Assembly (NCBI RefSeq): GCF_000708045.1
Contig: NZ_ANIE01000005.1
Coordinates: forward strand, 1-64,000
Direction: 5' to 3'
Length of the DNA stretch: 64,000 nt
From: Marinobacter nitratireducens
GTDB lineage: Bacteria > Pseudomonadota > Gammaproteobacteria > Pseudomonadales > Oleiphilaceae
The notes under the pieces are model-generated. The model saw nothing but the letters and a program-made list of their open reading frames with translations, was not told the origin of the DNA and did no database searches. A program made the position numbers and the translations under genes. This document shows positions 17,006 to 29,472 of the stretch, piece after piece (positions within the stretch are counted from its first letter, which is position 1; the number at the start of each line of letters is the position of its first letter).

Positions 17006-19159
17006 ATGATAACCCCAACAACGGAAATGAAGTCCCTGGCCAGAACTCCGGGTCTTGGAGTCGGCCTTCTCAGAACGCCAGACCTGAAAACCGGAACCGA
17101 AGAGGACAAGCGCGACGAAATCGCGTTGTATTTTACAAACACGTTCGATATTTACACCGGGCTGTTCGACTGCCTGGCCGATGATGCCGGCTACTTCCAG
17201 AAGTCGATCCCGCTGAGGCACCCGCTGATTTTCTACCTTGGGCACACCGCAACGTTCTTCATCAACAAACTGGTGCTCGCCAAACTCCTGCCCGAGCGAA
17301 TTGACCCGCGCATGGAGTCGATTTTTGCAGTTGGTGTGGATGAGATGAGTTGGGATGATCTGGACGAGGATCATTACGACTGGCCGACCGTCTCTGAAGT
17401 GCTGGATTACCGGGCCAAGGTTCGCGCCACGGTGCTGCATCTTATAGAGACACTCCCCCTGACCTTGCCGATCAACTGGGCAAGCCCCTGGTGGCCGATT
17501 GTGATGGGCGTCGAGCATGAGCGTATTCACCTTGAGACGTCGTCGGTTCTGATTCGACAACATGAGTTGGAGCGGGTGCGCCCTCAGCCAGAGTGGGAGC
17601 CGATTCGTGAGACTGGTGAAGCGCCGGAAAATGAACTGATCACCGTGCCGGCTGGCACAGTGTCGATCGGCAAGCCCTACGACGATGCCTACTACGGCTG
17701 GGATAACGAGTACGGTGAACACGAAGCCCAGGTCGATGAGTTCAGGGCAAGCCAGTATCTGGTCAGTAACCAGGAATTCCTCGGGTTTGTCGAGGCCGGC
17801 GGCTACCAGGAGGACCGATTCTGGAGTGAGGAGGGGTGTGCCTGGCGGCGATTCGCCAAGGCACGGCACCCGACCTTCTGGCGTTGGCAGAATGGATGGC
17901 AGCTGCGCCTTATGACCGAAGAAGTCGAGATGCCCTGGGACTGGCCGGTGGAAGTGAACTATCACGAAGCCAAAGCCTTCTGCGAGTGGAAGGGGGAGCA
18001 AACGGGCCAGCACATCCGCCTGCCCACGGAGGACGAGTGGTACCGGCTGTGTTCCGAGGCCGGCATTGACGAGGTAGGCGACGAACAAGCCGACGCCAAT
18101 CTGCACCTGGATCATGGCGCCTCTTCGTGCCCGGTGACCCGCTTCCGCCACGGCGAGTGGTTTGATGTGGTTGGCAATGTCTGGCAGTGGACAGAAACAC
18201 CCACCTATCCGTTCGACAACTTCAAGGTACACCCACTCTACGACGACTTCACAACGCCGACGTTCGATGGGCAACACAACCTGATCAAAGGTGGCTCGTG
18301 GATTTCCTGTGGCAACGAGGCCCGATTATCGGCTCGCTACGCCTTCCGACGGCATTTCTTCCAGCACGCTGGTTTCCGCTACATCGCCGCTGAGAGCGAG
18401 GCCGTACAACCAAACGCCTACTATGAAAGCGACCGGCTGCTGACTGAGTACGCGGAGTTCCACTTCGGTGATACCTGGTTTGGTGTGGACAACTTCCCGA
18501 AAGCCCTGGCGGATCTTGCTCTGGGTGCCATGAAGGGCAAGTCATTCGGAAAAGCACTTGATCTGGGCTGCGCCTGTGGCCGTTCCAGCTTTGAGTTGGC
18601 AAGAGCGTTCAACGAAGTGGAAGGTGTCGACTTCTCCGCCAACTTCATCCGTTTGGGTGTTGAAATGGCCGAGCAGGGTTCCATCCGATATGCGCTGGCA
18701 GAGGAAGGCGAGCTGGTGAGTTACCACACTCGCACCCTCAAAGAGCTCGGCCTTGAGGCATGTTCAGAAAGAGTCAGCTTCCACCAGGGCGACGCCTGCA
18801 ACCTGAAACCGCATTTCTCCGGCTACGACCTTGTTCTGGCGGCGAACCTGATAGACCGTCTCTACCGGCCAAGGCGCTTCCTGGACAGTATTCACGAGCG
18901 AATTAATGACGGTGGCTTATTGGTCATTGCTTCGCCGTACACCTGGCTGGAGGAACACACGCCGAAAGAGGAGTGGATTGGTGGTTTCAAGAAAGACGGT
19001 GAGAATCACACCACTCTGGATGGCCTGAAAGAACACCTTTCACGGCATTTCCGGTTAGTCAGTGAGCCGAGAAAGGTGCCTTTCGTGATCCGCGAAACCC
19101 AGCATAAATTCCAACACACGCTGTCGGAAGTGACGGTCTGGGAACGGTTGCCTCGCTGA
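17006..19159 (+). CDS. ovoA: Ovothiol synthase OvoA (5-histidylcysteine sulfoxide synthase / methyltransferase)
   Basis: A 717-residue three-part enzyme. The N-terminal DinB-like domain carries the iron motif HERIHLE (H171, H175, E177; HxxxHxE). The middle formylglycine-generating-enzyme-like domain (GTVSIGKPYDDAYYGWDNE, later GNVWQWTETP and GGSWISCGNEARLSARYAF) joins cysteine and histidine oxidatively. The C-terminal Rossmann methyltransferase (LDLGCACGRSSFELARAF from about residue 517) methylates the imidazole. Together with a separate C-S lyase, not seen here, this gives ovothiol A, a thiol antioxidant. All three domains are intact. The start at 17006 has an AAAGGA about 13 bases upstream; M8 is an alternative. 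A hairpin terminator follows. Confidence 0.95.
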   Translation: MITPTTEMKSLARTPGLGVGLLRTPDLKTGTEEDKRDEIALYFTNTFDIYTGLFDCLADDAGYFQKSIPLRHPLIFYLGHTATFFINKLVLAKLLPERIDPRMESIFAVGVDEMSWDDLDEDHYDWPTVSEVLDYRAKVRATVLHLIETLPLTLPINWASPWWPIVMGVEHERIHLETSSVLIRQHELERVRPQPEWEPIRETGEAPENELITVPAGTVSIGKPYDDAYYGWDNEYGEHEAQVDEFRASQYLVSNQEFLGFVEAGGYQEDRFWSEEGCAWRRFAKARHPTFWRWQNGWQLRLMTEEVEMPWDWPVEVNYHEAKAFCEWKGEQTGQHIRLPTEDEWYRLCSEAGIDEVGDEQADANLHLDHGASSCPVTRFRHGEWFDVVGNVWQWTETPTYPFDNFKVHPLYDDFTTPTFDGQHNLIKGGSWISCGNEARLSARYAFRRHFFQHAGFRYIAAESEAVQPNAYYESDRLLTEYAEFHFGDTWFGVDNFPKALADLALGAMKGKSFGKALDLGCACGRSSFELARAFNEVEGVDFSANFIRLGVEMAEQGSIRYALAEEGELVSYHTRTLKELGLEACSERVSFHQGDACNLKPHFSGYDLVLAANLIDRLYRPRRFLDSIHERINDGGLLVIASPYTWLEEHTPKEEWIGGFKKDGENHTTLDGLKEHLSRHFRLVSEPRKVPFVIRETQHKFQHTLSEVTVWERLPR

Positions 19160-19289: not shown

Positions 19290-20183
19290 ATGATTGCGAA
19301 AACAATAAAGGCCAGTGTTCACCCGATCTCAGTGCGCGCTCGCGCTCGATTTGCTACACCCAAAGGCAGCATTCCAGAAGTGCGGCAGCCGGATTTCGAT
19401 CTGGCCGGTGACGTGCCCAAGTACTGGTGGGACAACGATCCCGCCAAAACACTTCTGCTGGCGGCACTGTCGGCCAGTTTTCCCCCCGGTGAGCGATTTT
19501 TTATCGATTCGGTGCGCCACTACCAGAAGCAGATCACGGATCCTGAGCTGAAGGCGGCCGTTCGTGGCTTTATTGGCCAGGAGGCGCATCATTCGAGGGA
19601 GCATGAAGCGCTTAATGGCTATCTGCAGGATCGGGGTATCAATGTCGATCGACTGGAAGGAGAGATTCAGGCTTTCATGAACTGGCTGCGCAAGCACCTC
19701 AGCCCCGAGCGCCAGCTGGCCCATACGGTGGCTGTGGAGCATTTCACTGCCTTGATGGCCGAGGAATTTCTCCTCAAATATGATGCCCTGGAGGAAATGG
19801 ACCCGCGCATGGCCCCCATCTGGGCCTGGCATGCGATTGAGGAGTCTGAACACAAGGCCGTGGCGTTCGATGTTTACAAGACCGTTGGCGGCAGCGAGTT
19901 TGTTCGGCTGACCGAAATGATGGCAGTGAGCGTGTTTTTCCCGCTCTTCGCCGGGATTCATCTGGTTCAATTGATGAAAGAAGACGGCCAGCTGTTCAAT
20001 CTTAAATCCTGGGCCGATGGTCTCAATTACATGTGGGGCAAGCCCGGAGTGTTCCGCAAGCTCTTGCCGTTCTACTTCAAGTACTATCGCCCGGATTTCC
20101 ACCCCTGGAATCACGATGCCCGAGATCTGGTGGAGAAGGCCAAGCGCAAATGGTTGGCACCGGTGATGAAAAAGGCCTCGTGA
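19290..20183 (+). CDS. Predicted metal-dependent hydrolase (PF10118 / COG3687), copy 1
   Basis: A 297-residue helical protein of the COG3687 family, whose helices carry ferritin-like acidic and His clusters: ERFFIDSVRHY, GQEAHHSREHEAL, EHFTALMAEEFL and IEESEHKAVAFDVY. These look like a two-metal (diiron or dimanganese) site in a four-helix bundle. Biochemistry is poorly established; members often sit with lipid, alkane or steroid-type oxidation genes. There is no signal peptide, though a hydrophobic helix near residues 210-230 may touch the membrane. It precedes an AraC regulator and a hydrolase/amine-oxidase pair. A paralogue is at 54942-55880. Confidence 0.85.
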   Translation: MIAKTIKASVHPISVRARARFATPKGSIPEVRQPDFDLAGDVPKYWWDNDPAKTLLLAALSASFPPGERFFIDSVRHYQKQITDPELKAAVRGFIGQEAHHSREHEALNGYLQDRGINVDRLEGEIQAFMNWLRKHLSPERQLAHTVAVEHFTALMAEEFLLKYDALEEMDPRMAPIWAWHAIEESEHKAVAFDVYKTVGGSEFVRLTEMMAVSVFFPLFAGIHLVQLMKEDGQLFNLKSWADGLNYMWGKPGVFRKLLPFYFKYYRPDFHPWNHDARDLVEKAKRKWLAPVMKKAS

Positions 20184-20251
20184 CAGGTCCCCAGCTCGAA
20201 TTTCCAGCGGGATAACAGGCTGAAGCGTCATAGCCATGGGAGGTCACTGGT

Positions 20252-20992
20252 TTGAAGCGAAAAAACTGGGAAGGCGACATTGTGTTTTCCCACAGCACGG
20301 CCATATTCAGAGGCCATGTCGGTGATAACAAATTGCACAGTCACTGGGCATCTCAGCTCACTATCTCGCTGGATGACGAGCTGGCCTTTGAAACCTCGTC
20401 AGGGGCGCAGAGCGCGAAAGCGGTCTATTTCCCGTCCAACACTCCGCATCGATTGGAATCAGGGTTCGTCTGTTCCATTTATTTTGATCCTTTGGCGGAC
20501 TCCTTCTGTAGAGCTTTGAACAAGAGTGCAGCTGATGGCTGGACCGCTATATCCCTGAATGACCTTCCGCGGGCCCTGGCTCAAATCGACGCCTCAACGG
20601 ACCTCAGGGCTTTGCTGAATTCAGAATTACTCAGTTTGCCCGATATGGTTTCCCCTGATCCCCGGTTGGAGGCTGTCATTCGAGAGATCAAGGCCAGGCT
20701 TGCTGAGGGTGACGATATTGACCGGGACTCCCTCGCAGACATCGCTCACTTGTCCCCAACACGTTTCTCTCACTGGTTCGTTGAACGCACGGGCGTGCCA
20801 CTGAGGAGCTATAGAAAGTGGCTCAAGCTCAGAGTTGCTGTCGACGCTGTGCTCGAGGGCAGGAACCCGATGGAAGCCGCAACTTTGGCTGGTTTTAGTG
20901 ACCTGGCACACATGAGCCGGGTTTTCTCCGAGTCCTTTGGCTTTACCTACATGGACGCTATGAGAGCTTGGGAACGGTCAAACAAACTCTAG
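20252..20992 (+). CDS. AraC-family transcriptional regulator
   Basis: A 246-residue regulator. The start is a TTG 8 bases after GGGAGG. The N-terminal cupin-like half has an HSHW segment near residue 30 and probably binds a small ligand; the C-terminal half has two helix-turn-helix units (SLADIAHLSPTRFSHWFVER and ATLAGFSDLAHMSRVFSESF), the AraC/XylS pattern. It lies between a diiron-type hydrolase and an alpha/beta hydrolase on the same strand and is a good candidate activator of the hydrolase/amine-oxidase/ferredoxin-reductase genes downstream. No operator was identified. Confidence 0.9.
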   Translation: MKRKNWEGDIVFSHSTAIFRGHVGDNKLHSHWASQLTISLDDELAFETSSGAQSAKAVYFPSNTPHRLESGFVCSIYFDPLADSFCRALNKSAADGWTAISLNDLPRALAQIDASTDLRALLNSELLSLPDMVSPDPRLEAVIREIKARLAEGDDIDRDSLADIAHLSPTRFSHWFVERTGVPLRSYRKWLKLRVAVDAVLEGRNPMEAATLAGFSDLAHMSRVFSESFGFTYMDAMRAWERSNKL

Positions 20993-21087
20993 CTCTTTCG
21001 TTCAATACGATGCAGACACCAGCGGATAGACTGCAATCTTCTTTATTCATTCGAATGCCCCAAACAGAATGATAATGGGAGCAGTGC

Positions 21088-22038
21088 ATGAACATCAGGA
21101 AGGGCCGCGTTGAATCCGAAGGCCACCACATAGCCTATCTGGCCGTCAATGAGCACCTTGTTTGTGATGAGAGGCCCGCCATCGTATTCATCCATGGCGT
21201 ACTGGCGTCGGTCAATTTCTGGCGTGAGTGTGTGCCGCCTGCCTTCAAGAAAGACAGGGCCTGGTATTCCCTGAGCTTACCCGCTCATCATCCCTCGACC
21301 GTGCCGACGGACTTTGCTCCCGAACACGTCAATGAACAATGGTTCTACGACGTGATGTATGGCGCGCTCAAAGATTTGCTGGGTGATCGCAAAGCCATCA
21401 TTGTCGGGCACTCGACCGGCGGTTTCAGCGCACTCAATCTTGCCATTCACCAAGCGCCCAACGTGGTCGGCATCGTCAGTATTGCCGGTTTCCACAGTGG
21501 AAACTGGGGCGGAGTCGAAGGCCTGCTGGTGAAACTGGCAGGACTCGGCAGGTGGGCTGAGGGCCTGTTTGCCTCCAATATAAGGCTCGCCAGTAAAAGT
21601 CCATTCATTCAGCGTGTATTCGCAAGTCTCCTGGCGAATAACCACCGCGCCTATCGGGCGAACCCGATCAGCCGGCGCATGCTAGAGACCATCAGGCCCG
21701 ATGTCCGTGCACAGAATCCGGCGGCCTTGTTTCCTTTGTTCAATGGTATCAGTCGTCTGGAGATCGCGGAGCAGCTCTGCCACATCAACGTACCCTGTTA
21801 TCTGTTCGCCGGCACACATGATCCGGTCGTGCCTGCCAGGCAGTCTCTGCTATTGGCGGGCAACATTGAGCGGGCCAAGACCGTAGTTTTCCGTAACGTG
21901 GGCCATATGCCCTTTATGGAGGACACCGAGGCTTACACGGCAGCCTTGGAGCAGGCATTGGATAACATCGAAGCGCAGTATCCCATTCCTCAACACGGCC
22001 GCCAGGGAACCTTGCTAGAAAGGAGCGCCTCGCCATGA
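21088..22038 (+). CDS. Alpha/beta hydrolase
   Basis: A 316-residue alpha/beta-hydrolase-fold enzyme with the oxyanion segment FIHGVLASVNFW, nucleophile elbow VGHSTGG (Ser), an acid in AGTHDPVVPARQ and the catalytic His in NVGHMPFMED. It is cytoplasmic. Its last codons overlap the ATG of the flavin amine oxidase (ATGA at 22035-22038), so the two products are coupled and likely work on the same compound, for example an ester or amide whose amine is then oxidised. Exact substrate is unknown. Confidence 0.85.
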   Translation: MNIRKGRVESEGHHIAYLAVNEHLVCDERPAIVFIHGVLASVNFWRECVPPAFKKDRAWYSLSLPAHHPSTVPTDFAPEHVNEQWFYDVMYGALKDLLGDRKAIIVGHSTGGFSALNLAIHQAPNVVGIVSIAGFHSGNWGGVEGLLVKLAGLGRWAEGLFASNIRLASKSPFIQRVFASLLANNHRAYRANPISRRMLETIRPDVRAQNPAALFPLFNGISRLEIAEQLCHINVPCYLFAGTHDPVVPARQSLLLAGNIERAKTVVFRNVGHMPFMEDTEAYTAALEQALDNIEAQYPIPQHGRQGTLLERSASP

Positions 22039-23405
22039 ATTCAAACAAGGTGATTGTCATCGGTGCTGGCTTTTCCGGGCTCGCAGCCGCGGAAAAGCTC
22101 AACGCGGCAGGCATGCAGGTAACCGTGCTGGAGGCGCGAGACCGCGTCGGTGGCCGTGCCCGTACCGAGCAACAGGCGGATAGTATCTGGCTGGATTACG
22201 GCGGCCAGTGGTTGGGGCCGGGACAGAATGAGATGTACGCCCTGGCGAAGCGCCTGGGGCACAGTACCTGGCCCATGTACGTGGCCGGTAAGAACCGCAC
22301 TTTGTTTTCCGGTCGGCTTGGTGCCTACCGCGGTAGTATTCCCTTCAACCTGCCGCTGCCAGCCCTGCGCAGCCTGGCCTACGCCTTTGTGCGCCTGTCA
22401 TGGCTGATACGCCGCATCAACAAGGAAAGCCCATGGCTGTCCCCTCGAGCTGAGGAACTGGACAGCCAGACGATGGGCGACTGGATGCGTGAGCATGTGC
22501 GTCATCCGGATGCATTCAGCTTGCTCAGTATCTCGGTTAAAAGTGTGTTTGCAGCCGATCCCGACGATATCAGCCTGTTGCATGCACTGTTTTATTTTCG
22601 CAGCGGCGGCGGGTTCTTCTCCCTGGTGGAGTCCGAAGGTGGTGCTCAGCAGGACCGGTTGGAGCGGGGCGTTCAGCCACTGGCCGAATCCTACGCAAAG
22701 CTGCTGGAGGAGCGAGGCGTAAACATTCTCCTGAACCACCCCGTAAGCAAGATTGAGCAGCAGACCGATGCCGTCAAGGTGTTCATGAGTGCGGCTGAAT
22801 GGGAATGTGGCTCCGTGATTTGTGCAGCTCCACCTGCGTTGGCGAGTGAAATAGAGTTCGAACCGCCACTCGCCGATAAAAAGCAGAGCCTGTTGAGTAA
22901 TCTGCAGCCTGGCTGCGCGATCAAATGCTTCGCTGTGTACCCAACGCCTTTCTGGCGCGAGCGGGGCTGGTCGGGATCAGCGGTATCTGATGAGCCGCCC
23001 GTGCATGTCTGTTTTGATGTTACCCCGCCGGATGAAAATCGTGGAATTCTCATGGGTTTTATCGAAGGCCGGGACGGGGTCGCATACAGCGAACGGTCCC
23101 CAGAAAAGCGGAAGGCGGAATTCTTGCGTGCACTGGAATCCTGGTTCGGTGCAGAAGCTGCCCGCCCCATCGCCTATTACGACCACAGCTGGCGACAGGA
23201 CGAATGGGCACGCGGCTGTTATGCCGGTGTTGCCGCGCCTGGCCACTGGACCTCTGTCGGGCATGCTATACGTGAGCCCAGCGGGCGGATTTTCTGGGCC
23301 GGCACGGAAACGTCGACCGAATGGAACGGGTACTTCGAGGGTGCTGTGCGTGCAGGCATACGAGCGGCGGAGGAAGTGATTGAGGGCTTGATCCCGGCCG
23401 GCTGA
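22035..23405 (+). CDS. Flavin amine oxidase family protein
   Basis: A 456-residue FAD enzyme of the monoamine-oxidase/putrescine-oxidase superfamily. It begins with the dinucleotide motif VIVIGAGFSGLAAAEKL and the second FAD contact LEARDRVGGRARTE, and ends with the FAD C-terminal motif FWAGTETSTEWNGYFEGAVRAG. No signal peptide is present. Translation is coupled to the upstream hydrolase by a 4-base overlap. Substrates may be amines, amino acids or cyclic compounds; the class also contains desaturase-like enzymes, so amine oxidation is not proven. Confidence 0.87.
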   Translation: MNSNKVIVIGAGFSGLAAAEKLNAAGMQVTVLEARDRVGGRARTEQQADSIWLDYGGQWLGPGQNEMYALAKRLGHSTWPMYVAGKNRTLFSGRLGAYRGSIPFNLPLPALRSLAYAFVRLSWLIRRINKESPWLSPRAEELDSQTMGDWMREHVRHPDAFSLLSISVKSVFAADPDDISLLHALFYFRSGGGFFSLVESEGGAQQDRLERGVQPLAESYAKLLEERGVNILLNHPVSKIEQQTDAVKVFMSAAEWECGSVICAAPPALASEIEFEPPLADKKQSLLSNLQPGCAIKCFAVYPTPFWRERGWSGSAVSDEPPVHVCFDVTPPDENRGILMGFIEGRDGVAYSERSPEKRKAEFLRALESWFGAEAARPIAYYDHSWRQDEWARGCYAGVAAPGHWTSVGHAIREPSGRIFWAGTETSTEWNGYFEGAVRAGIRAAEEVIEGLIPAG

Positions 23406-23457
23406 TGAGGCGGCTTTTGGCTAGAAAGACGAACTTACTGCGTGCGTGGTAGATGTG

Positions 23458-25506
23458 ATGCAAATAGGAACAATCAAGGAAATCTGGCGCTTCCCGGTCA
23501 AATCGATGTTTGGCGAGCGAGTCAGTGCTGCACAAATCGAATCTGCAGGCTTTGCCGACGACCGCACCTGGGCGATTCGTGATGATGAAACCGGTGAAAT
23601 CGCAACCGGCAGAAGAATTCCCAGCCTGATGATGCTGAAAGCCCGCTATCTCTCCGAACCCCGAACAGGCTTTGGACCCGCGGCGCAGTCGCGGATAGAA
23701 ATCGAGTTTCCGGATGGTCGTTGCATCAGCTCAGACGACCCTTACGCCTCAGCGATACTGTCAATGTACACCGGAAAGCGTGTCAGTCTTATCCAGCGCC
23801 CGGCCGCGCGTGACAAGAAGCCCTATCGTCTGGCCCAGCCGATGAGTCCGAGCGAAGTTCGCTATGTACTGGGTATGAAAGCGGATGACCCTGATCCGGA
23901 TTTCTCCTCGTTTTCGCTCAAGGTGCTTGCCACCCTGTCCAGATACGCCACGCCACCGGGCGCGTTCTACGATGTTTATCCGCTGCATTTCATCACCACC
24001 GCAGCACTGGACACCATGAACGCGATCTACCCGGAAGGTAATTTCTGTCCTGAGCGCTATCGCCCGAGCTTTGTGATCGAAACTCATCCGGACCTCAACG
24101 GCATCGTCGAAAATGAATGGCGTGGTCGAGACCTGCGTATTGGTGATGCCATCATTCGCTGTAACCATCCGACTATCCGCTGCTCAATGCCGGGCACTGC
24201 GCAGCCCGGCATCCACAAAGACCTGAAGGTGCCACTAACGGTTATGGAGCACGCTGGCCAGCACCTCGGAGCCTATGCGACGCCCCGTAACGAGGCACAG
24301 ATTCGGGTCGGCGACAGCGTTGAATTGGTACCCCAGGTTGGTGGCAAGCTCTACCTGTGGTTCGACGAGGTGGGGCGCCGTGCTAAATCGAAGATCATAG
24401 GCGTTGGCAACCGCATCGCTGAGTTTGAAGAGAAACAAACCAAGCGATCACCCGCCGTGAAAGCGGCTCATCCCAGGGGCTTTCGATCTTTCACGGTGGT
24501 GAAACGCGAGCAGGAATCCAATGACATCGTCTCATTATGGTTCAAAGACCCTGAGCGCACTGAGTTGCCACGGTTCGTGCCCGGCCAGCACATCGTACTG
24601 GCTATACCACAGTCCGATGGCGGTCATGTCTATCGGCCATATTCGTTGTCCAGCCCTGGACACCAGCAAGACACCTACCGCATATCCGTGAAACGCGAAA
24701 CAGCCACCGTCGATGGCAAAACCGTTGTGGGAAGGGGATCAGGCTGGCTCCATGACCAACTGGCCGTTGGCGACAGCCTGGCCGTCAAAGATCCCGGCGG
24801 CCAATTTGCCGCCGTACCGTCTGACAATACCCCACTCGCGCTCATCAGCGCAGGCATCGGAATCACACCTTTCATGTCGATCTTGCAGAGCCTGGCTGCA
24901 CATAACCCTGAGCGTGAGGTTCATCTTTTTCACGGCATTCGGCATCCGCAAGACTTCGCCTTCCGGCAATCCTTCACAGCACTGCAGGAGCGGTTGCCGA
25001 ATTTCCGTTTTCACCTGTTTGTCAGCCAGCCCGATGCAGACTTGCCTGAGGGTAGTGTTGCCGGTCGCATGACTCCCGAACAGATAAGCAGCACCCTTGA
25101 GCCCAACGATCACTATGAATTTCTGATCTGTGGTAAACCAGCATTCAGCAAAGCCTTTCATGATGGTCTTGTTGCCCAGGGAATTAACGCCGGGCAGCTG
25201 CACTTCGAGAGCTTCGGTGCCAGTGTCGCGGCCGATGATGGCGACCAGACCGCCTACCGCATCCGCTTTACCGACAGTCGTCAGACCCTGAACTGGGACC
25301 CGAAACAGGAAAGCCTGCTCAGTTTTGCTGAGGCTCAGGGAATCGACGCCGCGTCTGGTTGTCGCTATGGGGCGTGTCAGGCTTGTGAGGCCACTCTGCT
25401 CTCAGGGGAGGTCAGCTACCCAGAGGATATTCAGCCTCCAGGAGGCAAAAACAAAGTGCTGCTGTGTTCGGCAAGGCCGAAATCAGATCTGGAGATCGAG
25501 CTGTAG
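23458..25506 (+). CDS. MOSC domain fused to ferredoxin-NADP reductase and 2Fe-2S ferredoxin domains
   Basis: A 682-residue multidomain oxidoreductase. Residues 1-320 are MOSC_N plus MOSC (PVKSMFGERVSAAQI; the putative molybdenum-ligand Cys in NHPTIRCSMPGTAQ). Residues 345-590 are an FAD/NAD(P)-binding reductase (RPYSLSSPG for FAD; SAGIGITPFMSIL and FLICGKPAF for NAD(P)). The C terminus is a 2Fe-2S ferredoxin (GCRYGACQACEATL and a last Cys in LLCSARP). So electrons could run from NAD(P)H through FAD and the cluster to a sulfurated Mo cofactor, as in N-hydroxylated-base reductases of the mARC/YcbX type. I prefer the ATG at 23458 to the GTG at 23446. Confidence 0.87.
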   Translation: MQIGTIKEIWRFPVKSMFGERVSAAQIESAGFADDRTWAIRDDETGEIATGRRIPSLMMLKARYLSEPRTGFGPAAQSRIEIEFPDGRCISSDDPYASAILSMYTGKRVSLIQRPAARDKKPYRLAQPMSPSEVRYVLGMKADDPDPDFSSFSLKVLATLSRYATPPGAFYDVYPLHFITTAALDTMNAIYPEGNFCPERYRPSFVIETHPDLNGIVENEWRGRDLRIGDAIIRCNHPTIRCSMPGTAQPGIHKDLKVPLTVMEHAGQHLGAYATPRNEAQIRVGDSVELVPQVGGKLYLWFDEVGRRAKSKIIGVGNRIAEFEEKQTKRSPAVKAAHPRGFRSFTVVKREQESNDIVSLWFKDPERTELPRFVPGQHIVLAIPQSDGGHVYRPYSLSSPGHQQDTYRISVKRETATVDGKTVVGRGSGWLHDQLAVGDSLAVKDPGGQFAAVPSDNTPLALISAGIGITPFMSILQSLAAHNPEREVHLFHGIRHPQDFAFRQSFTALQERLPNFRFHLFVSQPDADLPEGSVAGRMTPEQISSTLEPNDHYEFLICGKPAFSKAFHDGLVAQGINAGQLHFESFGASVAADDGDQTAYRIRFTDSRQTLNWDPKQESLLSFAEAQGIDAASGCRYGACQACEATLLSGEVSYPEDIQPPGGKNKVLLCSARPKSDLEIEL

Positions 25507-25544: not shown

Positions 25545-27563
25545 ATGTCACTTCGTAAATGCCTGCTTTTTCTGGCTGGGGTATCGGTTCTGTCGATGCT
25601 CTCCGCCTGTGGCGGAGGAGAGTCGAGTTCGCCATCAGAGAATCAAGAACTGGTCAACGGCTCGACTGCGTCAAAGCCCTGGCCGTCCTTGGCTTGCGAC
25701 CCACCGGCACCGAACTCGCAGCGCAATGCCTATTTTGGAGAGCTGCATTTGCACACCGAGTATTCGCTGGATGCCGTGGCGACCCGGCTCAAGCCTGAAG
25801 ATGCCTATCGTTTTGCCTTGGGCGAGGCAGTTGCCGCACCACCATACGATGAGGCGGGCAACTCCCTGGTGCCGCCCCATCAGATAGACCGGCCGTTGGA
25901 TTTTGCCGCGATTACCGATCATGGCGAATGGTTGGGTGAGCGCCAGTTGTGCACCGATCCGACAATCGACCAGGTGGCTTACTACTCGCCTGAATGCACA
26001 CTTTTCCGTGAGGACAAAGAACTGGGATTCCTTCTGTTTGGCGGGGGGGCGGCTGCTTTTAGCCCAGATATCTTCCCGAAGTTGGAGTCCGGTAGCCTTG
26101 ATTCCCTGACTGAAACAGGAAAACAGCGAGCGCCCTTTTGTGGCGCGCTGGGTGAAAAGTGCGAGGCTGCCGCTCGTGGCCCCTGGATGGATACTCAGCT
26201 TCAGGCCGAACGGTTCAACCAGCCGGGTTGTTTCACCACCTTCAACGCTTATGAATACACCTTGTCGCCGCAAAGTGACAATCTGCATCGGAACGTGATT
26301 TTCCGTGGTACGGAGGTTCCGACGATCCCGGTCAGTGCCAATGAAGCGCCCACGCCCACCGACCTTTGGCGAGAATTGGACGAGGCCTGCACCGGTGACT
26401 GCGAGTACCTTACAATTCCGCACAACTCCAACCTGTCTAACGGGCGCATGTTTGCATCACCCAACGATGTGGACGCCAGTGACAGCTACGACGTGGATGA
26501 GAGACGGAAGGCTGAACCTCTGATCGAGATCTTCCAGGTCAAGGGGTCGTCGGAGTGCAGTCAGTCAGAGGGTGCGAGCGAGGATGACCCATTATGTGAT
26601 TTTGAACAGCTGGCGTCGACGAACTTTGTGCAGTTCTTTTTGGGTGTTAATCCTCTTCCTGTAGCCCCGGCATACACCAACACCGTTCGTTACGGCCTGA
26701 AACAGGGGTTATTGCTTGAGCGTCAGTTCGGCGCGAATCCATTTCAGTACGGGTTTGTAGCCAGTACTGACTCCCATTTTGGCCTTCCCGGATCGGTGGA
26801 TGAGCAGAATTTTCCCGGCCATCGGGACGTTCCGCCGGTGAACGGTGTCAAGGATGATGCCTACAACAACCCCGGAGGACTGGCGGTGGCATGGGCCGAG
26901 GAAAATACGCGCGATGCGCTTTTCGATGCCTTCAAGCGAAAGGAAACCTACGCGACAAGCGGCCCGCGGTTGCAACTGAGGGTGTTTGGAGGAAACCAAA
27001 GCGGCCTGCCGGAGAATATGTGTCAGGGCAGTGGGGAGAGTTTTGTGCGCCAGGGCGATGCCGGCGGCGTGCCCATGGGAGGCGAACTCCATGTGGGGCA
27101 GGGGCGTCCCCGTCTGGCTATCTGGGCCGCTGCCGATGCCTGGCCTCGTGAGAATGGCCGGACTAAAGCGGTGCCTCTGGCGCGGATGCAAGTAATCAAG
27201 GGCTGGCTTGAGCTGGATGAGTCGGGTAACCCCGTGACCAAGCACAAGGTTTATGATGTAGCCGGAGCGGAACAGAGCGATTGGCAGGTTGATACGGCGG
27301 ACTGCTCGGTTTCCGGTAGCGGGCCGGCTCAGCTTTGCGGTGTCTGGGATGATCCGGATTTTGAGCCTTCTCAGAGTGCGTTTTATTACGCTCGAGTGGT
27401 TGAACAACCCACCTGCCGCTGGCTGACGCGGCAGTGCTTGGCGGCCCCGGAGAACCTGGATTGTGACAATCCGCCGGAAGAGTGGGCCGGATGCTGTGCG
27501 GTTGATACGCCGCCTACCGTGCAGGAAAGGGCTTGGGCATCTCCGATCTGGTACAAGCAATGA
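25545..27563 (+). CDS. DUF3604 lipoprotein (PHP-like hydrolase)
   Basis: A 672-residue exported lipoprotein; lipobox LSAC puts the lipidated Cys at residue 22. The body is DUF3604, a relative of PHP metal hydrolases: YFGELHLHTEYSLDA near the start, AAITDHGEWLGERQLC, TIPHNSNLSNGR, and FVASTDSHFGLPGS supply His and Asp ligands for a multi-metal site. Many Cys in the last 80 residues suggest disulfides. The catalytic activity of DUF3604 is not established. Its TGA overlaps the ATG of a membrane peptidylprolyl isomerase, and a HupE/UreJ-type membrane protein follows, a grouping seen repeatedly in marine proteobacteria as far as I recall. Confidence 0.88.
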   Translation: MSLRKCLLFLAGVSVLSMLSACGGGESSSPSENQELVNGSTASKPWPSLACDPPAPNSQRNAYFGELHLHTEYSLDAVATRLKPEDAYRFALGEAVAAPPYDEAGNSLVPPHQIDRPLDFAAITDHGEWLGERQLCTDPTIDQVAYYSPECTLFREDKELGFLLFGGGAAAFSPDIFPKLESGSLDSLTETGKQRAPFCGALGEKCEAAARGPWMDTQLQAERFNQPGCFTTFNAYEYTLSPQSDNLHRNVIFRGTEVPTIPVSANEAPTPTDLWRELDEACTGDCEYLTIPHNSNLSNGRMFASPNDVDASDSYDVDERRKAEPLIEIFQVKGSSECSQSEGASEDDPLCDFEQLASTNFVQFFLGVNPLPVAPAYTNTVRYGLKQGLLLERQFGANPFQYGFVASTDSHFGLPGSVDEQNFPGHRDVPPVNGVKDDAYNNPGGLAVAWAEENTRDALFDAFKRKETYATSGPRLQLRVFGGNQSGLPENMCQGSGESFVRQGDAGGVPMGGELHVGQGRPRLAIWAAADAWPRENGRTKAVPLARMQVIKGWLELDESGNPVTKHKVYDVAGAEQSDWQVDTADCSVSGSGPAQLCGVWDDPDFEPSQSAFYYARVVEQPTCRWLTRQCLAAPENLDCDNPPEEWAGCCAVDTPPTVQERAWASPIWYKQ

Positions 27564-28480
27564 ATTGCCTTCGATTCTCGTGGTTCGGGCGGCTGGGTAA
27601 GGTGCTTGCGCGCCAGCCTTTGCTGACGTTCCTGTTGCTTGGCGGGTTGCTTTATGTGACGGAGGCGAGGTGGTTCATTCCGTTGCAGGCGCAAACGCCG
27701 ATCGTTATTGAGGCTGAAAAGGTAGAGCGACTGCGTCAGCAATGGACACAGAAACTGGGGCGCGCCCCAGAACACAATGAGATGTTGGCAGTGCTTGAAG
27801 GGGTGGCATTGGAGGAAATGCTGATCGCAGAGGCGGTGGCCCGTGGCGTACATCGTAACGATCCGGTAGTCCTGCTCCGACTTCGGCAAAACCTCGAATT
27901 CCTCGGCATGGAGGTCAGCCCGGGTGCGTTGGAGCACGCCTACGATCTCGACATGCATCGCCACGACCCTGTGGTTCGCAAACGCTTGCGGTTGTTGATG
28001 GAGTCTGAATTGCTTGCCGGTGCAAGGCCAGCCCCAACGCCTTTGGATTCAGAGCCGCCGACCCCGGAGCCGTTGCATAAGTTCAGTTTCAGTCAGATCT
28101 TTCGTGAACAGCGGATTGGCCCGGATGAGTTGAATCGTCTGCAGGATGCTCGCCCGGAGAGTGCGGCCGAACTGTCTGATCCATTCCTGTTGGCGCACCG
28201 CTTTCATCAGGTCAGCGAGGTTCAGATCGCCCGGGAACTCGGCCCGGACCTGGCGCGTGCAGTGAGCTCCGCACCGATTGGCCGTTGGGTGGGGCCGATA
28301 CAGTCGGTCTACGGTGACCATTTGATATGGCTCGAGGGGCGAGAGCGAGTGACGCCCAATCTGGACATTGATCGAGTGCGGATTGAGCGTCAGATTCAGG
28401 CAGAAAAACAAAATCTGGAGCTGGCACTGGCGGACTTGCGGGCTCGTTATCGCTGGCACGTTGAGCCGGGTGAGGAGTAG
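27560..28480 (+). CDS. Membrane-anchored peptidylprolyl isomerase (parvulin/SurA-like)
   Basis: A 306-residue protein with an N-terminal transmembrane anchor (PLLTFLLLGGLLYV, about residues 23-37) and a periplasmic region. The C-terminal half is parvulin-like: KFSFSQIFR, DPFLLAHRFHQVSEVQIAREL, APIGRWVGPIQSVYGDHLIWL resemble PpiC/SurA rotamases. The ATG at 27560 overlaps the DUF3604 stop (ATGA), and the stop overlaps the next start (TAGTG). It probably folds the DUF3604 lipoprotein or the HupE-type partner in the periplasm. Isomerase activity is inferred from the fold only. Confidence 0.8.
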   Translation: MNCLRFSWFGRLGKVLARQPLLTFLLLGGLLYVTEARWFIPLQAQTPIVIEAEKVERLRQQWTQKLGRAPEHNEMLAVLEGVALEEMLIAEAVARGVHRNDPVVLLRLRQNLEFLGMEVSPGALEHAYDLDMHRHDPVVRKRLRLLMESELLAGARPAPTPLDSEPPTPEPLHKFSFSQIFREQRIGPDELNRLQDARPESAAELSDPFLLAHRFHQVSEVQIARELGPDLARAVSSAPIGRWVGPIQSVYGDHLIWLEGRERVTPNLDIDRVRIERQIQAEKQNLELALADLRARYRWHVEPGEE

Positions 28481-29472
28481 TGACCGTGAGAAGCCGCATC
28501 GGTTTGCTGGTGATACTGGCCATTGTTTGGTCGGGAACGGCGGTTGCGCACTCGAAGGCGCCGGCGTTGCTTGAACTCAGGTTGGGTTCCGATGGCTTGG
28601 TGATTGCCCGCCTTAAGCAAAACCTGGCTATGGAAGTGCCAGAACCGGATTTCCCTCCAATGTGTCGGGTGTCTCAGAGCGTTCCGTCGCAGCGTGAAAG
28701 TGACGGCGTCTGGAGTGAGTGGCAGCTGGACTGTGGTGGGGGACTGCCTGAAGGAGCGATTGGCTGGTCGGAGCTGTCGGCGGAGGTTAACGTCGTGCTG
28801 CGCCTGATTGCAGGCGACGGACAAAACCGCACCATACTTTTGCACCACAACAACCCCTTTCACCTGCTCTCTGGTGAGCCGGCGGCGATCGAGCAGTTTC
28901 GACAGGCTGTTGGTTCAGGCGTGAGTCACCTGTTTGCCGGGTTTGACCATCTGTTATTTATCATCGGTCTTGTGCTTTATCTGGGACGAACGCGCGCACT
29001 GATAGCCGCTGCTAGCCTGTTCACGGTTGGACACAGTCTTACCCTCGCGCTTGTGACGCTGGGGACCCTCTCTGTGCCTGTTGCGCTGGCAGAACTTGCA
29101 ATAGCCGGAAGCATTCTCTATCTGGCAACCAGTCTGTTCAGAACCCGGCGCCGGCAAGTGGAGCGGGGTTGGAAGGACATTCTGTTGATGCCTCTTGGCT
29201 TCGGCCTGCTTCATGGCTTGGGTTTTGCCAACGTACTGGAGAGTGCGGGTTTGCGTTCCGGTGACTTGCTCATCAATTTATTGGGCTTCAACCTGGGGAT
29301 TGAACTGGGGCAACTGGTTTTCATCGGTAGCATTCTGATGCTTTATGGGGCTTCACGATGGTTTGGAGTGGAGCCGAAGTGGCGAGCTACCGTGGCTACT
29401 GCCCTGATTTTCGTGATGGGCAATGCTGCTGCCTACTGGTGGTGGGAGCGCATGCTGGCGTTGATTGTTTAG
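28480..29472 (+). CDS. HupE/UreJ-family membrane protein
   Basis: A 330-residue protein starting at a GTG that shares one base with the previous stop. It has a signal peptide (ending AVA before HSK), a periplasmic beta-rich region of about 130 residues and then six to seven membrane helices of the HupE/UreJ_2 type, with GFDHLLFIIGLVLYL, TVGHSLTLALVTLG and FGLLHGLGFANVLE carrying the conserved His residues of nickel/cobalt permease-like proteins. Classical HupE moves nickel for hydrogenase; no hydrogenase or urease gene is here. In this trio a role in metal supply to the DUF3604 enzyme is an attractive guess. Confidence 0.85.
   Translation: MTVRSRIGLLVILAIVWSGTAVAHSKAPALLELRLGSDGLVIARLKQNLAMEVPEPDFPPMCRVSQSVPSQRESDGVWSEWQLDCGGGLPEGAIGWSELSAEVNVVLRLIAGDGQNRTILLHHNNPFHLLSGEPAAIEQFRQAVGSGVSHLFAGFDHLLFIIGLVLYLGRTRALIAAASLFTVGHSLTLALVTLGTLSVPVALAELAIAGSILYLATSLFRTRRRQVERGWKDILLMPLGFGLLHGLGFANVLESAGLRSGDLLINLLGFNLGIELGQLVFIGSILMLYGASRWFGVEPKWRATVATALIFVMGNAAAYWWWERMLALIV

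Follow-up and report, generated by a model that had tools for sequence, protein, structure and literature searches.

A DUF3604 lipoprotein gene linked to genes for a parvulin-type foldase and a HupE/UreJ-type membrane protein: a candidate periplasmic maturation cassette

Introduction

How do enzymes that are exported by the Sec route acquire the right metal outside the cytoplasm? Three overlapping genes of Marinobacter nitratireducens bear on this question. They lie in the window, by which we mean the whole stretch of 64,000 nucleotides that was analysed, and a first-pass annotation of its sequence had proposed that they encode a periplasmic metalloenzyme with its own foldase and metal supply. 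The enzyme belongs to the uncharacterised DUF3604 family, which has at least 14 matches in some genomes and is tied to two helper proteins. The literature searched contains no description of the trio, including HupE or UreJ combined with a PPIase. In that literature, DUF3604 appears in one paper, in a table row of a Chlamydia study, and accessions of the PF12228/PF13795 type appear in PMC12537917 only, the main text of which has no occurrence of DUF3604, PPIase or peptidyl.

Results

Three overlapping genes form the conserved unit

The locus comprises the following genes and junctions.

25545..27563, + strand: DUF3604 (PF12228) lipoprotein, predicted PHP-fold metallohydrolase, 672 aa
27560..28480, + strand: membrane-anchored, PPIase-like foldase of the parvulin type (SurA/PrsA/PEB4-like, by profile match; N-terminal hydrophobic anchor in the alignment)
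28480..29472, + strand: HupE/UreJ_2 (PF13795) membrane protein with a short periplasmic ectodomain
27560..27563, + strand: ATGA overlap, in which the foldase ATG starts at 27560 and TGA is the DUF3604 stop
28480..28480, + strand: one-base overlap between the foldase TAG stop (28478-28480) and the GTG start of the HupE-type gene

Direct reading of the open reading frames and junctions shows that both overlaps are exactly as first annotated; an alternative, in-frame GTG start of the HupE-type gene is found at 28486. A promoter scan was uninformative (4 found, 4.5 expected). The co-directional upstream genes (19290-25506) gave just three weak matches (25-36% identity) in DUF3604 loci elsewhere. 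We therefore regard the trio as the conserved unit and rejected a larger operon that includes these genes.

The exported protein is predicted to adopt a PHP fold

The first protein is matched by PF12228 with 517 bits (curated cut-off 20.4) over profile positions 2-590 of 591. It carries a signal peptide and four motifs, which were named after the His/Asp four-motif pattern of PHP enzymes.

25545..25610, + strand: Sec lipoprotein signal peptide with lipobox LSAC (Cys codon 25608-25610), as read from the sequence
25746..25754, + strand: PHP motif I, H68-x-H70 (both His in 50/50 aligned sequences)
25917..25922, + strand: PHP motif II, D125-H126 (H126 in 50/50, D125 in 48/50)
26421..26423, + strand: PHP motif III, H293 of HNxN (50/50)
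26769..26777, + strand: PHP motif IV, D409-x-H411 (50/50)

The residues of the HxH, H, H, DxH series are thus invariant among the 50 sequences. An AlphaFold2 model (pLDDT 86, pTM 0.89) resembles the PHP proteins BVU_3505 (3e38_B; Z 16.2, rmsd 3.7, 240 residues aligned) and TM0559 (2anu_D; Z 15.0, rmsd 3.6, 212 of 220 aligned), and from rank 6 downward the structure matches have Z values of 3.9 or less. The fold is accordingly predicted to be that of the PHP superfamily of metallohydrolases, and the protein would be expected to use a divalent metal and to act as a hydrolase. Together with the lipobox, the modelled fold and the invariant metal-ligand-type residues bear out the earlier assignment as a PHP-like lipoprotein. 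Sequence searches of the PDB gave no match to E 1, and none to E 10 with 50 sequences. DUF3604 differs from the PHP superfamily in its predicted export, its length of about 670 aa and its additional conserved residues D76, E237, H248, E328, D348 and E354 (all 50/50) and E337 (48/50). Since the leader is of the Sec type, the enzyme should fold and gain its metal outside the cytoplasm; a crude scan picked up strings resembling a lipobox in 54 of 150 members of the family. Residues 447-547 show weak sequence similarity to the CehA/McbA metallohydrolases (NF038032), membership of which was rejected (20.2 bits, curated cut-off 80).

The second protein belongs with the parvulin-type foldases

In Pfam, the second protein matches just Rotamase_2 (PF13145), with 17.4 bits, which is under the curated cut-off of 27.

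28202..28351, + strand: parvulin-like segment of the foldase (Rotamase_2 match, residues 215-264)

The isomerase label gains firmness only once homologues are aligned. Built from 25 of them, a profile matches in the PDB 3rfw (PEB4, E 5.7e-11), 5ez1 (2e-8) and SurA (5.7e-8), as well as HP_0175 and PrsA, and so establishes homology to solved parvulin foldases. Unlike SurA, PrsA and PEB4, the trio foldase is anchored in the membrane at its N-terminus, has a narrow occurrence tied to DUF3604 and often has Gln at the first of two catalytic-type His positions, which correspond to those of Pin1. The first position is His in 23 and Gln in 21 of 45 homologues and is Gln in the window, which makes proline isomerase activity doubtful; the second is His in 42 of 45. 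The earlier description as a PPIase and chaperone hence holds for the class of the protein.

The third protein combines a HupE/UreJ_2 membrane domain with a His-tipped ectodomain

PF13795 (HupE_UreJ_2) matches the third protein with 135 bits (curated cut-off 24.5), and its AlphaFold2 model has a pLDDT of 89 and a pTM of 0.82.

28549..28551, + strand: His24, the apparent N-terminus once signal peptidase has cut (AVA|H, site judged by eye)
28549..28869, + strand: predicted beta-sandwich ectodomain, residues 24-130, whose model resembles ZrgA, PA4063 and Ang-1
28927..28950, + strand: HX5DH motif, H150-D156-H157 (42/42 homologues)
29032..29034, + strand: H185 of FTxxHS (42/42)
29212..29214, + strand: H245 of FGLxHGxGF (42/42)

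The column of His24 holds His in 37 and Asp in the other 5 of 42 homologues; these counts are from alignment columns, a count by regular expression having been discarded as unreliable. HX5DH is also the motif of HupE in hydrogenase clusters, which would share a metallocentre context with the trio protein, whereas the presumed client of the latter is extracytoplasmic. In a tree of HupE-type proteins, the 40 trio members cluster with a support of 0.06 and two proteins of diverged trios fall outside, so that we do not claim monophyly.

The modelled ectodomain matches 8f1b (Z 10.8), 7aly (Z 10.6) and 9gce, which is Ang-1 (rmsd 2.8, 102 residues aligned), the last with a Z of 8.7 that is barely above the values of up to 7.5 for the unrelated ELIC. 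A PDB sequence search with the protein found nothing and the profile misses 9GCE even at E 10; a homologue in another genome does match 9GCE (E 1.2e-8). The whole model had no Foldseek match in the PDB at E 0.001. For the membrane domain, a chain of the TOC-TIC supercomplex (7vcf_A, Z 10.9, VIA-align) was set aside as a resemblance between helical bundles. The anglerase Ang-1-HupE/UreJ-2 (PMC12537917) shares with the trio protein a signal peptide followed by His and the HupE/UreJ-2 membrane domain. Its beta-sandwich ectodomain, which that of the trio protein may resemble as modelled, is longer (about 170 versus about 110 residues). Ang-1 is the nearest relative with measurements, and its affinity is higher for Cu (Kd 74 nM) than for Ni (220 nM) (PMC12537917, section 8). 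The His motifs that had been noted as those of nickel permeases are present, but the metal may be one other than nickel.

The three genes travel together, and the helpers appear to be shared

All three genes are found in 24 of the 61 DUF3604 loci scanned, window included. Among 80 named DUF3604 loci, several of them on short contigs, a foldase gene is nearby in 22 and a HupE-type gene in 18; many DUF3604 copies are not adjacent to the pair, which is a point against a cassette. The gene order is permuted while the linkage persists: of 47 foldase loci, 28 read DUF3604-foldase-HupE, 5 foldase-HupE-DUF3604 and the rest are arrayed or divergent. A pSymA record of Sinorhizobium meliloti (L200) has the order DUF3604-DUF3604-foldase-HupE, and a further locus (L201) is from Pseudoalteromonas. 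DUF3604 and foldase stand without a nearby HupE-type gene at L132 and L138, as far as the retrieved sequence extends, and at L124 and L192, where the contigs end; at L074 the HupE-type gene is on another contig of the genome. Two loci carry a diverged version of the trio that belongs to a far-diverged DUF3604 clade.

Co-occurrence was surveyed in 369 genomes of the class, with cut-offs placed at gaps in the scores (DUF3604 >150 bits, foldase >170, HupE type >290). Strong matches to DUF3604 are present in 23 genomes, to the foldase type in 20, to the HupE type in 22 and to all three in 18. The pairwise overlaps are 18 for DUF3604 and foldase (Fisher p 4e-24), 20 for DUF3604 and HupE type (8e-28) and 20 for foldase and HupE type (4e-31), figures that are partly circular since genes next to DUF3604 went into the profiles. 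Two tests escape this circularity. Without the 13 genomes whose foldases entered the profile, the HupE type is found in 7 of 10 DUF3604 genomes versus 2 of 346 others (p 3e-11) and the foldase in 5 of 10 versus 2 of 346 (p 1e-7). Moreover, in a phylum sample of 115 genomes, which overlaps the earlier samples, the 6 genomes with DUF3604 are also those with the foldase (>220 bits) and the HupE type (>300 bits); 4 of these are outside the class and contributed nothing to the profiles (p 1.6e-7 when G000 and G387 are excluded). Thus, the genes do travel together, much more often than chance would allow, and the prospect that they rarely do so, which would have undone the first-pass reading, did not materialize. 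Among the class genomes with DUF3604, G011, G093 (a fragment) and G178 lack a full HupE-type match and G186 lacks a foldase match, and two class genomes (G264, G361) have the foldase-HupE pair without DUF3604. Of the 80 DUF3604 genomes of the order, 5 show no match to either helper at the limits applied, which counts against a cassette, and 2 more have no foldase, including G398 with its 9 DUF3604 matches.

These 80 genomes of the order have a mean of at least 4.3 DUF3604 matches (up to 14 were scored per genome), compared to a HupE-type mean of 1.19 and maximum of 3, and the two copy numbers are not correlated (rho -0.03). The 18 genomes with at least 7 DUF3604 matches have 1-2 HupE-type matches each. 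Because DUF3604-rich genomes keep so few, the pair has the look of maturation equipment that a whole class of enzymes shares.

Discussion

In the sampled genomes the helpers occur almost only with the DUF3604 family, and therefore they probably fold and metal-load its members. We place it just on the probable side that the three genes form such a maturation cassette for the periplasm. The DUF3604 enzyme would leave the cytoplasm unfolded via Sec as a lipoprotein, and the membrane-anchored SurA/PrsA-like protein would catch the emerging chain and aid its folding. HupE/UreJ_2 may bind a transition metal through its N-terminal His and ectodomain, either translocate it by way of the HX5DH membrane domain or retain it at the membrane, and hand it to the folding enzyme; a single pair would serve all DUF3604 copies of a genome. 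Gene structure, co-occurrence, copy numbers and conserved residues are observed and the folds are predicted; the export route, hydrolase activity, the identity of the metal, its direct hand-over and the direction of transport are what we infer. Of the metalloenzyme with foldase and metal supply proposed at the outset, the linkage, the PHP fold, the foldase class and the HupE-type His residues have stood, while the metal may not be nickel, isomerase activity is doubtful and "own" should give way to a shared pair of helpers.

If the pair matures DUF3604, co-expression with it would open the family to assays, and foldase-coupled metal loading in the periplasm would gain a model that can be tested. 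More tentatively, and with somewhat less than an even chance in our view, there may be a general metal-insertion system, in which a foldase and a His-tipped HupE donor mature multi-copy, Sec-exported PHP hydrolases as an extracytoplasmic counterpart of urease and hydrogenase maturation. DUF3604 would then represent an extensive and unexplored group of envelope hydrolases, the proper study of which requires the pair.

Other explanations account for parts of these data. An ordinary envelope cluster, linked by lateral transfer of the block without joint function, would explain why trios are found on plasmids too and why, in the 11 relatives where the flanking gene RadD was found, no trio lies within about 1.5 kb of it. 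It is very improbable in view of the permuted order, of four genomes (G005, G244, G285, G340) that keep DUF3604 and the pair on separate contigs or far apart, and of the correlated distance matrices of 40 trios (r 0.53-0.61, 0/2000 permutations), a signal that may include species phylogeny. We also consider it quite improbable that the HupE-type protein moves whatever DUF3604 releases by hydrolysis or serves some other purpose, the trio sharing regulation only: His24, H150, D156, H157, H185 and H245 are typical of metal handling and the ectodomain model is like three metal-binding proteins, even if the whole model is without a structural match and we know of no transport substrate for this HupE-type branch.

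The remaining two readings concern the direction of metal flow. An exporter that supplies cytoplasmic metal to periplasmic DUF3604, i.e. the same cassette with reverse flow, would suit a client that is extracytoplasmic to judge by its leader, and the His and Asp residues conserved in the membrane domain are compatible with both directions. Nevertheless export is distinctly unlikely, as PMC12537917 (section 8, citing Brito 2010) describes HupE relatives as systems for nickel uptake and the ectodomain with its N-terminal His resembles a capture device. Alternatively, DUF3604 might hydrolyse metal-binding organic ligands outside the membrane, with the HupE-type protein importing the freed metal, the foldase merely helping the enzymes to fold and many DUF3604 specificities feeding one transporter. 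Such scavenging fits the many DUF3604 enzymes per single HupE-type gene and agrees with the proposal that Ang-1 permeases act in uptake (PMC12537917, section 8). Still, it is unlikely, because it leaves unexplained a foldase linkage as tight as that of the permease (20/20 foldase genomes carry the HupE type).

The surroundings of the trios were scanned for neighbour families in 110 of 233 and 108 of 161 neighbour proteins, nearest first, with most short proteins, two near-duplicates and the tails of the lists omitted by hand. The families are mixed and neither scan gives a consistent substrate hint. No metallophore gene is prominent among the 25 families shown by either scan, which argues weakly against scavenging, and the Plug domain of TonB receptors, in 3 of the 108 proteins, is in its favour. 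As a separate lead, 5 of the 108 proteins near trios are sulfatases.

Gene order and flanks of the trio

We read the open reading frames and their junctions directly in the sequence, and the three genes and two overlaps described in the first-pass annotation proved exactly right. The trio and its immediate neighbours are:

23446-25506, same direction as the trio: fusion gene with MOSC, flavin/NAD reductase and 2Fe-2S ferredoxin domains (family search)
25545-27563, + strand: DUF3604 (PF12228) lipoprotein gene (read directly)
27560-28480, + strand: isomerase-like (foldase) gene, overlapping the DUF3604 end (read directly)
28480-29472, + strand: HupE-type membrane protein gene, overlapping the isomerase end (read directly)
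from 29572, after the trio: RadD (family search)

The fusion gene ends at 25506, 38 bases before the trio. Genes 5' of the trio, including this one, gave only three weak matches across DUF3604 loci elsewhere. Since these upstream genes rarely recur around DUF3604, the trio itself is the conserved unit. RadD is present in 11 of 12 relatives, where no trio lies within about 1.5 kb of it. Two relatives also carry short partial RadD copies a few kb from the full gene (G485:C11:341179-341259 and G554:C13:468606-468788), which are perhaps traces of insertions. Positions 17006-19159 encode 717 aa in which a DinB/FGE-type domain seems to be joined to a methyltransferase, as in the ovothiol synthase OvoA.

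Co-occurrence of the three genes across genomes

The individual parts are members of known families. We placed cut-offs at gaps in the score distributions (DUF3604 >150, foldase >170 and HupE type >290 bits). PF12228 at E 1e-3 matched 35 of 369 class genomes, 23 of them above 150 bits and the remaining 12 at 62 bits or less, and none of 14 control genomes. The foldase profile at E 1e-6 matched 302 class genomes, ordinary PPIases included. Its scores split into two groups, above 170 bits in 20 genomes and 99 bits or below in the rest; the 99-bit match is a gene piece in genome G229 that adjoins a HupE-type gene. The HupE profile at E 1e-6 matched 101 class genomes, 22 of them above 290 bits, with the next best at 223. 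All three types occur together in 18 of the 369 genomes, and no genome above the foldase gap lacks the HupE type. The exceptions are DUF3604 without a full HupE-type match (G011, G178 and G093, which has a fragment of 152 bits), the HupE type without an above-gap foldase (G186, G229), and the pair without DUF3604 (G264 and G361, the latter pair close to a contig end).

Because the foldase and HupE profiles had been built from DUF3604 neighbours, we removed the 13 genomes that supplied foldase rows, 12 of which had also supplied HupE rows. The HupE type was then found in 7/10 DUF3604 genomes versus 2/346 others, and the foldase in 5/10 versus 2/346. In a phylum sample of 115 genomes, strong DUF3604 matches (E 1e-40) were observed in six, and the identical six contain the foldase (>220 bits) and the HupE type (>300 bits). 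Where DUF3604 was lacking, the foldase profile reached 79-82 bits in three genomes and the HupE profile at most 216 bits in ten. Four of these genomes, from other classes and absent from the profiles, constitute the new evidence (p 1.6e-7), since the phylum sample overlaps in part with those used before. The proposed linkage of the three genes held in this survey.

The 47 foldase-bearing loci (L073 and L190 being one place) comprise 28 with the order DUF-PPI-HUP (DUF3604, foldase, HupE type), five PPI-HUP-DUF, four DUF-PPI, three DUF-DUF-PPI-HUP and seven other arrangements found once each. All three genes are kept in G005, G244, G285 and G340 despite separate contigs or large distance. Against linkage, 80 named DUF3604 loci contained the foldase in 22 cases and the HupE type in 18. 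The trio is found on annotated plasmid records of Pseudoalteromonas, Roseibium and Rhizobium, where the adjoining annotations are already publicly visible, and the unannotated S. meliloti pSymA record has DUF-DUF-PPI-HUP.

Two loci of a distant DUF3604 clade, scoring 74 and 102 bits against the DUF3604 profile, each have a diverged trio of their own:

L221, 3524-7898, and L222, 5215-9408: diverged trios with DUF3604 ORFs of about 770-780 codons

Both the foldases and the HupE-type partners are strongly diverged; the L222 foldase scores only 23 bits, and the HupE-type proteins again have His following the apparent signal peptide. One ORF of G012 (L228 4040-5038, - strand) joins DUF3604 profile positions 2-58, the lipoprotein N-terminus, to the last 94 HupE profile positions, the C-terminus, and is probably what a deletion left of a DUF-PPI-HUP operon. 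For the proteins from 40 trios the distance matrices are correlated (r 0.53-0.61, 0/2000 permutations), species phylogeny not being removed.

A proposed helper pair shared by many enzymes

The order set comprised 80 of the 90 DUF3604 genomes found, with foldase matches (E 1e-20) in 73 and HupE-type matches (E 1e-60) in 75. DUF3604 matches (E 1e-60) average at least 4.3 per genome and reach at least 14; some matches may represent only part of a split gene, and G628 lies slightly below the limit. HupE-type matches average 1.19, with a maximum of 3, and do not correlate with DUF3604 number. Seven or more DUF3604 matches occur in 18 genomes, each of which has one or two HupE-type matches and from none (G398) to two foldase matches, some of the latter being two pieces of one gene. 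A locus from a Vicinamibacteria MAG (L176 6162-20216) carries six DUF3604 genes, two before and four after a single foldase-HupE pair. The match counts per genome shift the earlier picture of a private supply for a single enzyme towards a helper pair shared by the enzyme class. The combination, as a putative shared periplasmic maturation kit, was not found in the literature searched, which includes few subscription journals.

Features of the three proteins

The AlphaFold2 model of DUF3604 (50 sequences; pLDDT 86, pTM 0.89) has a predicted fold matching the PHP metallohydrolase structures 3e38 (Z 16.2; Foldseek E 2.7e-4) and 2anu (Z 15.0), and H68, H70, H126, H293, D409 and H411 are invariant in 50/50 sequences. 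By a crude scan of 150 members the leaders look Sec-type: 140 had a hydrophobic stretch, 54 carried a lipobox-like string, and only four showed a twin-arginine-like string, none of these four being a convincing Tat leader by eye. An enzyme exported unfolded would have to gain its fold and metal beyond the cytoplasm.

The foldase has a hydrophobic N-terminal anchor with an EPLLHFL motif in the alignment, and profile searches place it near PEB4, SurA and PrsA. Its first catalytic-type position is His in 23/45 and Gln in 21/45 sequences, so that many members are more likely to act as chaperones than as isomerases.

In the HupE type, H150, D156, H157, H185 and H245 are invariant (42/42), and two ectodomain Cys are each present in 33/42. 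The residue right after the apparent signal peptide is His in 37/42 and Asp in 5/42. This His is broader than the trio type, since two further HupE/UreJ_2 proteins of the genome that contains the window (L216, G000:C9:120925-121728; L217, G000:C3:852806-853318) also show it. The predicted ectodomain fold resembles zinc-binding ZrgA (Z 10.8), PA4063 (Z 10.6) and the copper-bound anglerase domain Ang-1 (9GCE; Z 8.7), the last alignment beginning at model residue 24 and Ang-1 chain residue 1. By itself the Ang-1 match is weak, since unrelated ELIC rows reach Z 7.5. On sequence the ectodomain is not Ang-1, whereas a homologue in another genome is. The reported Kd of Ang-1 is 74 nM for Cu and 220 nM for Ni, and the domain is reported to be located on HupE/UreJ-2 permeases (PMC12537917); the main text of that paper does not mention DUF3604 or PPIase. 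The predicted membrane domain (model residues 133-330) resembles chain A of the chloroplast TOC-TIC supercomplex (7vcf_A Z 10.9; 8z9y_A Z 8.1), a likeness of limited weight because helical bundles easily give high scores.

A working model

The trio probably works by Sec export, anchored folding and metal supply: the DUF3604 enzyme would cross the membrane via Sec, the membrane-anchored foldase would hold and fold its chain, and the HupE type would capture metal with its N-terminal His and pass it to the enzyme. The leading alternative is metal scavenging, with DUF3604 releasing metal that the HupE-type protein would then take in. The sulfatase family is the commonest neighbour family near trios, with five of 108 proteins scanned (alignment A8, e.g. 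L067 11247-12404), and is a possible lead to the DUF3604 substrate.
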